Assembly: GCF_000621865.1 (NCBI RefSeq)
Contig: NZ_KK211359.1
Location: 1-64,000, forward strand
DNA from: Pseudobutyrivibrio sp. MD2005
GTDB taxonomy: Bacteria; Bacillota; Clostridia; Lachnospirales; Lachnospiraceae
Length of the DNA stretch: 64,000 nucleotides
Direction of reading: 5' to 3'
Position numbers and translations under genes: made by a program. This document shows positions 27,260 through 60,356 of the stretch, one piece after another. Under the pieces are notes generated by a model, which was given only the letters and a program-made list of their open reading frames with translations, was not told the origin of the DNA and made no database searches. Numbering within the stretch: the stretch's first letter is position 1; every line of letters starts with the position of its first letter.

Positions 27260-27959
27260 AGCCCGCGGCACCCTTGTACATAACTTGTTGTCGCCAGGCC
27301 CGGGCCACGCCCCCTGTTTAGAACAAGCTGTGCCAGGCCCCAGGTCACGCCCTGCCAGCAGATACAGGTGACATCGCCTTCGGCTTAAGATTATCTAGGC
27401 GCCAAGTGTCGCATTATTTATTGCGCGTGTTCTTTTGATTCTTTGCAATTAGCACGTTACAGTATGTTGGTCACAAACACACTAAACAAATAAATAAAGT
27501 CACCAATACAATCTTAGGAATAATTGCGTGATTTTGGAGTGAGCATAGAAAAATAGAAGCAGGTTTTGCAGTATATAGGTATGCGCTGCCACGGATGGCA
27601 GCGCAAGTGCGTAAGCGACACGACGTCGCATGGAGCACGGTACCTATATACTCAAAACCTGCTTCGTTATTTTTCTAAGCGAACGTAATATGAACGCAAT
27701 TATCCTAAGCATTGTTTGGTGACATTTTTATAATCTACAAGTGTTTGTGACCAACATACAGTAATGCTAAATTGCAAAACCAACAAAAGGACACGCGCTA
27801 AATGCTCCCTTTTGGCGCCAAGATAATCTAAAACCTCGCGAAATCGTCACCTGTATCTGCTGGCAGGGCGTGATCTTGGGCCTGGCACAGCGACAGAGTT
27901 TTAGGGGCGTGGCCCGGGGCCTGGCTTGTAGGTTGAGGGGGGCAGGGGTGCCGCGAGCT
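27260..27959 (+). repeat. giant hairpin element GHE-1 (candidate large structured RNA)
   Basis: A gene-free 700-base stretch whose left and right halves are complementary almost end to end. Outer pair AGCCCGCGGCACCC with GGGTGCCGCGAGCT; 39-nt stem 27334-27372 with 27846-27884 (two non-Watson-Crick positions, one a G-U); 473-nt core between these. In the core, 27462-27480 pairs exactly with 27741-27759, GAAGCAGG-type stems follow, and the apex carries hairpin GCGCTGCC/GGCAGCGC (loop ACGGAT, 27583-27604) next to a second hairpin GCGAC/GTCGC (27615-27629). The same core, loops and apex recur in GHE-2 and GHE-3. I find no convincing reading frame shared by copies. Function unknown. Confidence 0.9.
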
Positions 27960-48071: not shown

Positions 48072-48751
48072 AGCCCTCGGCATAGCCGAGGGCTTTTTTG
48101 ATGCACCCACATGGGCCCCGCCTGTATACACTATAACCCAGCCCCAGTAGGGAGCTCGTGGCCTGTGGGGACTAGGAACATCGCCTGCGGCTTAAGATTA
48201 TCTAGGTGCCAAGTGTCGCATCATTTATTGTGCGTGTTCTTTAAATTCTTTGCAATCCGGAGACGGCTGTGCGCATAATACAGACACACACTACTTATTA
48301 ATAAGTTACCAATACAATCTTAGAACTAATTGCGTGATTTTGGAGTGAACCTAGAAAAATAGAAGCAGGTTTTGAAATATATAGGTAGGCGCTGCCATGG
48401 ACGGCAGCGCAAGTGCGTAAGCGACAGGACGTCGCATGGAGCACGGTACCTAGATATTCAAAACCTGCTTCGTTATTTTTCTTGGAGAACGGAGTATGAA
48501 CGCAATTAGTCTAAGCATTGTTTGGTAACTAATATTTTACATATAAGTGTCTGTATTATGCGTACAGCCGCCGCCGGATTGCAAAACCAATTAAAGTACA
48601 CGCACTGAATGCTCCCTTTTGGCACCAAGATAATCTAAAGCCTTGCGAAATCGTTCCTAGTCCCCGCAGGCCACGGGCTCCCTACTGGGGCTGGATTCGA
48701 AATCTACGCGGGGTCCATGTGGGGGCGGGGGCATAGGGCTAGCCGAGGGCT
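48072..48751 (+). repeat. giant hairpin element GHE-2 (candidate large structured RNA)
   Basis: A 680-base gene-free element with the same architecture as GHE-1. Outer stems include CCACATGG with CCATGTGG, and a 42-nt uninterrupted stem 48138-48179 with 48653-48694 whose only imperfections are two G-U pairs. The core between the stems is 473 nt, the same length as in GHE-1. Within it 48272-48287 pairs exactly with 48547-48562, and the apex has GCGCTGCC/GGCAGCGC (loop ATGGAC, 48389-48410) plus hairpin GCGAC/GTCGC. Core bases are largely identical to GHE-1, while the outer and mid stems are unrelated in sequence but still paired. No coding frame is conserved. Confidence 0.9.
48073..48099 (+). 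terminator. strong terminator at the left edge of GHE-2
   Basis: GCCCTCGGC pairs with GCCGAGGGC around ATA, then TTTTTT. Its left arm (48072-48081) is also complementary to GCCGAGGGCT at 48742-48751, the far right end of GHE-2, so two pairings compete. Confidence 0.9.
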
Positions 48752-58394: not shown

Positions 58395-59553
58395 TAAAAG
58401 AGCTAATTTAGACATGAAACAATACGGCATGTTTATTGCCCTTATTGTAATTTATTTAATCTTTGCAATACTTACAGGTGGTAAAAACCTTACACCTATG
58501 AACATTAACAACCTTGTAATGCAGAACGGTTACGTAGTAATCCTTGCAATAGGTATGTTACTTTGCGTACTTACTGGTAACGTCGACCTGGGCGTTGGTT
58601 CAGTAGTAGCTTTATGTGGTGCCACAGCTGGTATCATGATGATGGACTACAAGATGAATATGTGGGTTGCTATTTTTGCAGCACTTGCAATTGGTCTCTT
58701 AGTAGGTATGTTTGCAGGCTTCTTCATCGCCTACTTAAGCATTCCTCCATTCGTTGTTACACTGGCTACAATGCTTATGGGTCGAGGCCTTACATACACA
58801 CTTTTACAGGCACAGACAAAAGGTCCTCTTCCTACAAACTACAACTTCATTGGAGCAGGCTTCCTTCCTACATACAAAATATTCTTTGGCGATGGAATCT
58901 TAGACTTAGTATCAATCGCAGTTGCAATTATTGCATCAGCTGCATTAATCTGGTCAGAGCTTAAGAGCATCAAGACAAAGAAGAAATACAACTTTGCATT
59001 AGCTCCAACATGGCAGACAATTCTCAAGCTTGGAATTATGCTTTTCATCATTTGGTTCTTCTTCTATAAATTAGCACGTTACAATGGACTTCCATTTGTA
59101 TTACTTATCATGGTAATCCTCATTGGAATCTATGCATTTATCACAACAAAGACAGTTGCAGGACGTCAAATCTACGCATTAGGTGGAAACAGAAAAGCAG
59201 CTAACCTTTCAGGTATCGATACAAACAAAGTATTCTTCTGGGTATACACAAACATGGGTGTACTTGCAGCAATCGCAGGTATCGTACTTTCAGCTCGTAA
59301 CGGATCATCTACACCAAAAGCTGGTGATGGTTTCGAAATGGATGCCATCGCATCTTGCTACATCGGTGGTGCAGCCGTTGCCGGTGGTTCAGGTACAATC
59401 CTTGGAGCAGTTGTCGGAGCCTTCGTAATGGGTATCCTCAACAACGGTATGTCCCTATTTGGATGGTCAACAGATATCCAAAAAATCGTAAAGGGTGCCG
59501 TACTCCTTGGTGCCGTTACAGTAGACGTACTTTCAAAGCGCAAGAAAAACTAA
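58381..59553 (+). CDS. sugar ABC permease (GguB-like)
   Basis: About 390 residues; ATG codons at 58378, 58381 and 58387 follow AAAGG, so the exact start is uncertain. About ten membrane segments; [50 protein letters not shown] and [37 protein letters not shown] are CUT2 permease blocks. Overlaps the ATPase gene. Followed at once by a terminator that is also the left edge of GHE-3. Confidence 0.92.
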
Positions 59554-59560
59554 AACTCAT

Positions 59561-59591
59561 CCCTGGGGCCACAGGCACCCAGGGATTTTTT
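59561..59591 (+). terminator. terminator of the sugar ABC operon
   Basis: CCCTGGG pairs with CCCAGGG, then ATTTTTT. The loop side contains GCCACAGGCACCC (59568-59580), which is exactly complementary to 60330-60342 at the far end of GHE-3. Confidence 0.85.
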
Positions 59592-60356
59592 ATGCCCGCC
59601 GCCCCGTGTTTGCCCGCTTCCCGCTATGCCAAGGCTTTTTGCGCCCACCGATTTATATTTGCTGCCGGCCTCTTGCCCTAGTGCTTGCCGCGCCCACGCT
59701 ATAGCTACACAATCACAAAATTTTGATTTTCTAAATACTGCATGTCGCGTTCTTTATTAGCAGGTGTTCTTTCGATTCTTTGCAATTCGTGGGTAAGTGT
59801 TTGTGCTGTGCTGACACGCACAGCTTTTATTAATTACTACCAAAGCAGATTTGCAGTATAATTGCATGATTTTGAAATGAACTTAGTAAAATAAGAAACA
59901 GGTTTTATAAAGTTTATATACGGGGTGCCATGGACGGCACCCCGAGCCTGATAGTGAAACGGACTGAACTTGAAGGCGGTATATAAACTTATAAAACCTG
60001 TTTCTTTAATTTTACTTAGTGAATGGAGTATGAATGCAATTATACTGCGAATCTGTTTGGTAGTAATGTTTGTACTTCATAGTGTCAGCACCGCAACAAA
60101 CACTTACCCACGAATGGCAAAACCAACGAAAGTACACCTGCAGAAAGCTCCATTTGCAGTATTAAGAAAATCTAAAATTTTGCTCAAATGATGTAGCTAT
60201 AGCGTTGGCGCGGCAAGCCACAGGGCAAGAGGCCGGCAGCCTCCAGGTTATGGTGGGCGCAAAAAAGTCTTGGGGTAGCGGGAAGAAGCGGGCATGAAGC
60301 TATGGGCGGTGGATTGGGAAACAAGGGGCGGGTGCCTGTGGCACATTGAGGGGTCT
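59561..60356 (+). repeat. giant hairpin element GHE-3 (diverged candidate structured RNA)
   Basis: Same plan as GHE-1 and GHE-2 but more diverged in sequence and slightly longer. Outermost pair 59568-59580 with 60330-60342; further GC-rich stem around 59612-59649 with about 60256-60297; 48-nt stem 59661-59708 with 60193-60240. Core 484 nt: 59788-59804 pairs exactly with 60096-60112; the loops TGATTTTGAAATGAAC and GAATGGAGTATGAA match those of the other copies; apex hairpin GGGGTGCC/GGCACCCC keeps the loop ATGGAC while most of its stem base pairs differ. The second apex arm is kept in outline only. No coding frame is supported. Confidence 0.88.

Follow-up and report, generated by a model that had tools for sequence, protein, structure and literature searches.

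Giant hairpins of Pseudobutyrivibrio as probable members of a MITE-like transposon family tipped by the TwoAYGGAY motif

Three giant hairpins, GHE-1, GHE-2 and GHE-3, found in a 64,000-nucleotide stretch of the Pseudobutyrivibrio sp. MD2005 genome (the whole stretch is hereafter the window), are most probably old members of a high-copy, non-autonomous (MITE-like) family of DNA transposons of Pseudobutyrivibrio, which would be served in trans by an IS66-type transposase, reshaped by recombination between the arms of each hairpin and possibly equipped with CsrA-binding loops. The feature is real and striking, but it is not a new class of RNA: the elements form a giant MITE-like family whose tip is a known RNA motif, TwoAYGGAY. 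Directly visible in the genomes are the number of copies, their ends, 8-bp duplications, empty sites, a transposon of a sister species that has an IS66-family transposase and agrees in its ends and duplication length, and a remnant of one end of that transposon in the genome of MD2005 itself (the home genome).

Read from the outside in, a full member would consist of a 14-bp terminal inverted repeat (TIR), GTTACYATTCACAG, a short non-pairing subterminal segment, a copy-specific and near-perfect stem of ~40-50 bp, a conserved imperfect stem of ~150 nt per side and the TwoAYGGAY tip. An IS66-type transposase acting in trans would spread these hairpins. The outer arms would stay paired by recombining or copying between themselves, rather than by selection on an RNA helix, and the same recombination would also flip the core with respect to the ends. 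On transcripts that read through an element, GGA hairpin loops may become exposed and bind CsrA.

With this reading the orphan Rfam family TwoAYGGAY gains a genetic context, that of a mobile element whose ends and duplication length are known and for which there is a candidate transposase, and the mobile-element context explains its many copies here. As far as the searched part of the literature shows, the transposon context of TwoAYGGAY, the ends, the duplication, the IS66-type parent and the concerted arms are new. A search for Pseudobutyrivibrio together with 'inverted repeat' gave no match; among the matches listed for MITEs, Rfam and Clostridia, none was relevant by its title and the beginning of its abstract; the searched part of the literature on IS66 and MITEs, including PMC9769881 and PMC3189936, held nothing on this hairpin family; and nothing relevant appeared among the matches listed for CsrA with MITEs or sponges.

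Three hairpins with a common core

The hairpins first described in the sequence-only reading are present where it placed them (Table 1), as near-perfect structures of 0.7-0.8 kb that pair with themselves nearly end to end and share a core and its internal loops. In an inverted-repeat scan the longest pair of arms flanking each core was 92-96% complementary. The core lengths given previously, 473, 473 and 484 nt, held for the first two elements, the same scan leaving 482 nt between the arms of GHE-3. Folded as single-stranded DNA, GHE-1 reached -251.7 kcal/mol, compared with -100.0 (sd 6.5) for 20 shuffles. Over 481 nt, identity between GHE-1 and GHE-2 is 82.5%; GHE-3, which represents a more diverged subfamily, is 68% identical to either over 425-440 nt.

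The description of these stretches as free of genes was borne out with one exception: no open reading frame (ORF) of at least 90 aa was found in them save one of 108 aa with a TTG start (59355-59681), which overlaps both the upstream gene and the beginning of GHE-3. Promoter-like sites around GHE-1, the only stretch scanned for them, numbered 3 against 1.9 expected, which is near chance.

Table 1 Positions and features of the window hairpins, of two-ended copies with perfect duplications and of the G043 transposon.
Feature	Sequence	Position	Strand	Remarks
GHE-1 (copy L024), giant-hairpin element	Window	27260..27959	+	Class without recognisable terminal GTTACYATTCACAG repeats; inverted arms; DNA fold z -23
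GHE-1 5' copy-specific outer arm	Window	27327..27372	+	96% complementary to 27846-27891
GHE-1 3' copy-specific outer arm	Window	27846..27891	+	Partner of 27327..27372
GHE-1 tip, Rfam RF01731 TwoAYGGAY	Window	27532..27691	+	cmscan 77.2 bits, E 2.4e-11; hairpin 1 loop CACGGATG
GHE-2 (copy L026), giant-hairpin element	Window	48072..48751	+	Inverted arms 48135-48179/48653-48697
GHE-2 tip, RF01731 TwoAYGGAY	Window	48338..48497	+	cmscan 75.8 bits; hairpin 1 loop CATGGACG
GHE-3 (copy L047), giant-hairpin element	Window	59561..60356	+	More diverged subfamily; inverted arms 59661-59709/60192-60240
GHE-3 tip, RF01731 TwoAYGGAY	Window	59871..60031	+	cmscan 61.9 bits
8/8 duplication flush with ends	L019 (home genome)			TAGGGATT
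8/8 duplication flush with ends	L031 (home genome)			AATAAATT
8/8 duplication flush with ends	L038 (home genome)			TCTTACTC
8/8 duplication flush with ends	L040 (home genome)			AAAAATCC
8/8 duplication flush with ends	L059 (G018)			ACTATTAT
G043 transposon, TIR	L228	663-676		1 mismatch; same ends as hairpin elements
G043 transposon, TIR	L228	3612-3625		Same ends as hairpin elements

The tip is a known RNA family with many copies

When the window was scanned against Rfam 15, five matches exceeded the family cut-offs, two tRNAs and the three tips, each of which is TwoAYGGAY (RF01731; gathering cut-off 43 bits); OLE, GOLLD, ROOL, HEARO and raiA had no match over their cut-offs in the window. An Rfam match was one of the outcomes that the sequence-only reading had itself named as refuting an undescribed large RNA. 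The elements resemble TwoAYGGAY RNA in their central ~160 nt, which score over the curated cut-off, and in carrying GGA hairpin loops on the sense strand. They differ from it in that the match spans just the inner part of elements of 0.6-0.8 kb, well beyond the 168 nt of the Rfam model, and in being multicopy and, in many cases, bounded by transposon ends. Rfam types the family as Cis-reg, and an excerpt of PMC2864571 marks it as probably RNA and probably not cis-regulatory.

Nor is this a family of three, as had been proposed. The home genome (3.09 Mb assembly) has 49 matches to RF01731, all 49 over the cut-off, and three further copies, L050, L052 and L056, were found by their ends, one halved and two broken by assembly gaps. 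Runs of N lie inside L027, L052, L056 and L092; palindromes seem to break assemblies, and copy numbers are therefore lower bounds. The three window copies do have the orientation of the neighbouring + strand genes, as claimed, but the rule fails genome-wide: in 48 of the 49 copies the upstream and downstream genes were +/+ in 15, -/- in 16, +/- in 11 and -/+ in 5, with one lacking a downstream call.

RF01731 was found in 24 of 41 genomes (the home genome included), all belonging to the same genus, of which 24 of 25 members carry it, and in none of 16 genomes from other families of the order; stricter filters were used in this search, so that its counts are lower bounds. Genomes of the genus hold 0 to 49 copies (1 to 49 where the family is present). 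Among 398 genomes sampled evenly across the phylum, with at most six candidates scored per genome, matches at E <= 0.001 occurred in 51 genomes and in 41 of 267 genera, 34 of the 51 genomes exceeding the family cut-off. Outside the genus, pairing continues for 25-98 nt past the model on both sides, beating shuffles, at 21 of 29 sampled loci; the remaining eight lack clear arms or align oddly, and three of these lie at contig ends, where the coordinates are unsure. Typical copies in the genus of the window pair over ~225 nt per side, and the giant form was seen in that genus only, as judged from the phylum sample and the 29 loci fetched outside it. The size of 0.6-0.8 kb therefore looks like an expansion in Pseudobutyrivibrio.

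Ends, target duplications and empty sites

Alignment of 48 copies from the home genome revealed a conserved core of ~480 nt and outer parts that are unlike one another. Beyond their copy-specific arms many copies end in GTTACCATTCACAG, a 14-mer that across the genus often reads GTTACTATTCACAG. At up to one mismatch the 14-mer occurs at 36 sites in the home genome, against 0 for a reversed-pattern control, and at 170 sites in 25 of 29 genus genomes, against 20 control sites. Both TIRs were recognised, at up to three mismatches, at 24 of the 77 loci from the home genome and the genus.

Five of these 24 two-ended copies are flanked by a perfect 8-bp target duplication (Table 1), and L037 matches at 7 of 8 positions, as does L052, one of the copies found by its ends. 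Identity between the two flanks shows its largest excess at a width of 8 (mean 0.56, compared with 0.32 for mismatched partners), with smaller excesses at widths 2 (0.38 vs 0.23) and 4 (0.44 vs 0.32). As in other bacterial MITEs, the elements are non-coding and multicopy, have TIRs and a target duplication of fixed length, and share their ends with a larger transposon; they differ in their unusual length, in their conserved RNA-motif tip and in copy-specific arms that evolve in concert.

The clearest empty site is the counterpart of L056 in G018, with flanks 94-96% identical, although the duplication letters of this copy agree at just 5 of 8 positions. GHE-1 is absent at the orthologous 3' side of its upstream gene in seven of eight relatives, and the eighth, G018, has a short relic there with letters of the tip and one TIR. 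GHE-2 is absent from G014, where ~300 bp separate the flanking genes; the remaining four genomes searched do not have its flanks next to each other. GHE-3 is missing from the orthologous intergenic stretch in G018, G014, G010 and G022, the site in G015 not being located. Taken together, the empty sites and duplications point to actual transposition of these elements, and the second option of the sequence-only reading, a mobile element based on a structured RNA, is well supported by the multiple copies, the TIRs, the duplications, the empty sites and the IS66-type transposon with the same ends described below. The starts of GHE-2 and GHE-3 adjoin terminator-like hairpins. A terminator-linked insertion of the window copies was considered and set aside, as relatives differ in sequence at those sites.

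The window copies themselves carry no recognisable TIR (10 matches in the window at up to three mismatches, 10.1 expected), so that their place in the family rests on homology of the core, and their boundaries are approximate. In the base of the core GHE-1 and GHE-2 are 79-89% identical, on the opposite strand, to a TIR-flanked 419-bp element of G001, and their tips are 76-81% identical to those of TIR-flanked copies. For GHE-3 the likeness to TIR-flanked copies is weaker, at 69-77%, with 82% over 45 nt in L094, and none of the three matched L092, the TIR-flanked element of G011. On the strength of this homology GHE-1 to GHE-3 are most readily placed in the transposon family as members that are old or have no ends. 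The 419-bp TIR-flanked element at L094 (30-448) joins the base of the GHE-1/GHE-2 core to a different apex, which suggests that the tips of these elements may be modular.

A candidate IS66-type parent

IS66 elements generate 8-bp target duplications and have GTAA termini. The family was chosen for its duplication length and was the sole transposase family searched; matches to its transposases occur in 19 of 29 genus genomes. One of them, a divergent member in G043, sits between TIRs that read ATTACTATTCACAG and CTGTGAATAGTAAC (Table 1), with CGCATAAA on both sides as a perfect 8-bp duplication. Its 581-aa protein matches PF03050 (E 8.3e-18) and NF033517 (183.2 bits, cut-off 180), and is accompanied by ORFs of 120 aa and 177 aa, the latter without a Pfam match. 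The transposase and the 8-bp duplication are those of the IS66 family, whereas PF03050 is matched at a low 65-68 bits (the other full-length copies of the genus reach 237-314), the TIR starts with GTTAC/ATTAC rather than GTAA, and the 177-aa ORF is an addition.

Past the TIR, the left end of the G043 transposon is also found at a solo TIR in the home genome (L051) and in G009 (L243), with 0 of 2000 shuffles as good; another solo TIR of the home genome, L055, is unlike the IS66 end past the TIR (264 of 2000 shuffles as good). Relatives of the G043 transposase were found in two of 29 genus genomes, namely G043 itself and G009, which has an 83-aa fragment. There were none in the home genome, so that the enzyme behind the fresh insertions there is not seen. 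In 20 fetched stretches no pair of inward-facing TIRs enclosed an open frame of at least 150 codons. The case for this parent rests on one intact element, and, given the shared ends and duplication length, an IS66-type transposon very probably mobilised the hairpins; this may have been one of the G043 type or a relative now lost or unassembled. Near these solo TIRs of the home genome we also observed arrays of the palindromes AAAGGTATAACC / GGTTATACCTTT (L051 1080-1330, reverse strand; L055 1500-1780).

GGA loops and a possible link to CsrA

TwoAYGGAY RNAs have been proposed, in an excerpt of PMC4333381, to be CsrA-binding sRNAs of Clostridia, and the idea of CsrA binding is therefore not new. 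It can be extended to a mobile CsrA decoy, which would spread as a transposon, give rise to transcripts that act in trans as CsrB-like sponges, offer one or two GGA loops per tip to a CsrA dimer and, through its copy load, shift motility and other traits under CsrA control. Beyond the published proposal, which favours it, this extension draws on the loops themselves: hairpin 1 carries GGA in its loop in 48 of 49 home-genome copies (mostly CATGGACG or CACGGACG) and in 26 of 28 genus copies, and, according to an excerpt of PMC4894983, apical hexaloops of the type CANGGANG are high-affinity CsrA/RsmE sites, adjacent loops being suited to a dimer. In other genera, three contig-end loci having been dropped, at least one sense GGA loop is present in 23 of 26 full-length copies, against 0 of 26 in antisense, and two such loops, spaced 27-39 nt, in 8 of 26. 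The covariance model itself favours GGA loops, however, so that these counts show consistency and are not independent proof. Hairpin 2 lacks a GGA loop in most home-genome copies, being CAGGACG in 10 of 49 and in 3 of 28 genus copies, and both the mixed orientation to genes and the near-chance number of promoter-like sites around GHE-1 also speak against a decoy.

CsrA (PF02599) was found in 49 of the 51 genomes with TwoAYGGAY, compared with 236 of the 347 others (Fisher p 4e-6), and in 39 of 41 genera with TwoAYGGAY, compared with 157 of 226 without (p 2e-4). Neither comparison is corrected for descent, and CsrA is common, occurring in 285 of the 398 phylum genomes; the two genomes with TwoAYGGAY that lack it are G225 and G279 (75% completeness). 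One home-genome copy (L043 1477-2500) has csrA as one neighbour and, as the other, a flaG-like gene belonging to a flagellar cluster, and it is located downstream of a fliW-like gene; the names other than csrA were read off translations. This position suits a decoy, but it may be due to chance given 49 copies, and among the matches listed L043 is the only one with csrA within 1 kb. The elements resemble CsrA-sequestering RNAs of the CsrB/RsmZ type in presenting GGA in the apical loops of stable hairpins. Where those RNAs offer many sites, however, a copy here offers one or two and spreads as a transposon, and its binding of CsrA is putative.

We regard the mobile decoy as a tentative idea, on balance unlikely. 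The most elaborate version, in which TwoAYGGAY, catalogued as an RNA of unknown function, is here the tip of a selfish hairpin that was multiplied by an IS66-type transposase to ~50 copies, had its arms reshaped by self-recombination and now titrates or exploits the CsrA-FliW motility switch through its GGA loops, appears doubtful to us. Placed in this mobile context, the published CsrA-sponge idea becomes a way to ask whether the sites of a global regulator can be carried and multiplied by a transposon.

Arms that differ between copies and match within them

The arms were compared in 43 of the 49 home-genome copies, six being dropped as truncated, gapped or at contig ends. At positions -205 to -163 the outer arm is 86% matched to its own partner, against 51-52% to other copies. 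In 42 of 43 copies the 5' arm is closer to its own 3' arm than to the 5' arm of any other copy, and for the 3' arm the closest sequence is likewise its own 5' partner in 39 of 43, whereas in the core stem the own partner is closest in 4 of 43, in either direction. Capture of the arms from local host sequence was not supported, since in two-ended copies the arms are enclosed by the TIRs. The subterminal segments are of two kinds, whose order about the core goes both ways: of 21 copies, 6 have one arrangement and 6 the other (9 unclear), L023 and L036 being weak at one end. These patterns suggest that the arms undergo inversion and copying between each other through arm-arm recombination. Arms that are unlike between copies and matched within them preserve a natural history of the survival and evolution of long palindromes in bacterial chromosomes.

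Alternatively, selection could act on the hairpin as DNA (a cruciform), for example because the transposase or replication needs it, and keep the outer arms complementary through ordinary compensatory mutations. Pairing at the level of DNA would fit the near-equal numbers of G-U and A-C mismatches (357 and 332 overall, p = 0.36), and in 19 pairs of related copies 50 of the 143 arm differences are compensated. The remaining 93 are not, which indicates that homogenisation of the arms is partial and that pairing is not strictly restored. Against selection on the hairpin, the two arrangements of core and ends find their simplest explanation in an inversion through the arms, and the arms have changed much faster than the core without ceasing to match. 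We consider this alternative unlikely as the main cause, and favour recombination between the arms.

A selected + strand RNA helix would give more G-U than A-C mismatches, and the lack of a consistent excess in the arms thus counts against one. In the home genome (47 copies) G-U and A-C mismatches numbered 85 and 80 in the outer arms and 140 and 122 in the core; in 28 genus copies they numbered 36 and 59 in the outer arms (p = 0.02) and 96 and 71 in the core stems (p = 0.06), all these p values being rough because the copies share ancestry. The same test was uninformative for the apex hairpins, hairpin 1 of the home-genome copies having 411 standard pairs, 1 G-U and 0 A-C. The undescribed large ornate RNA of the sequence-only reading, with its whole structure under selection, would account for the very stable fold, the conserved core and the genus-wide presence, but it is rejected as very improbable given the Rfam match of the tip, the near-equal mismatches, the mixed orientation, the duplications and empty sites, a copy number that ranges from 0 to 49 within the genus and a core that can face either way between the ends.

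Other repeats

In the stretch orthologous to GHE-3 (L138, L139 and L140), the terminator-like part holds a hairpin repeat of ~95 nt, AAGCGAAGC... / ...GCTTGTAG, which is seemingly nested in G014. A second family with TIRs consists of hairpins of 191-193 bp that end in GTTACTATTCACAG (L102 2644-2835; L099 2509-2701; L086 2863-3053). A duplication is not clear in these sister elements, six of which have flanks agreeing at 1-5 of 8 positions, and in the three copies read the stem of the 5' hairpin varies while the 3' half is alike.
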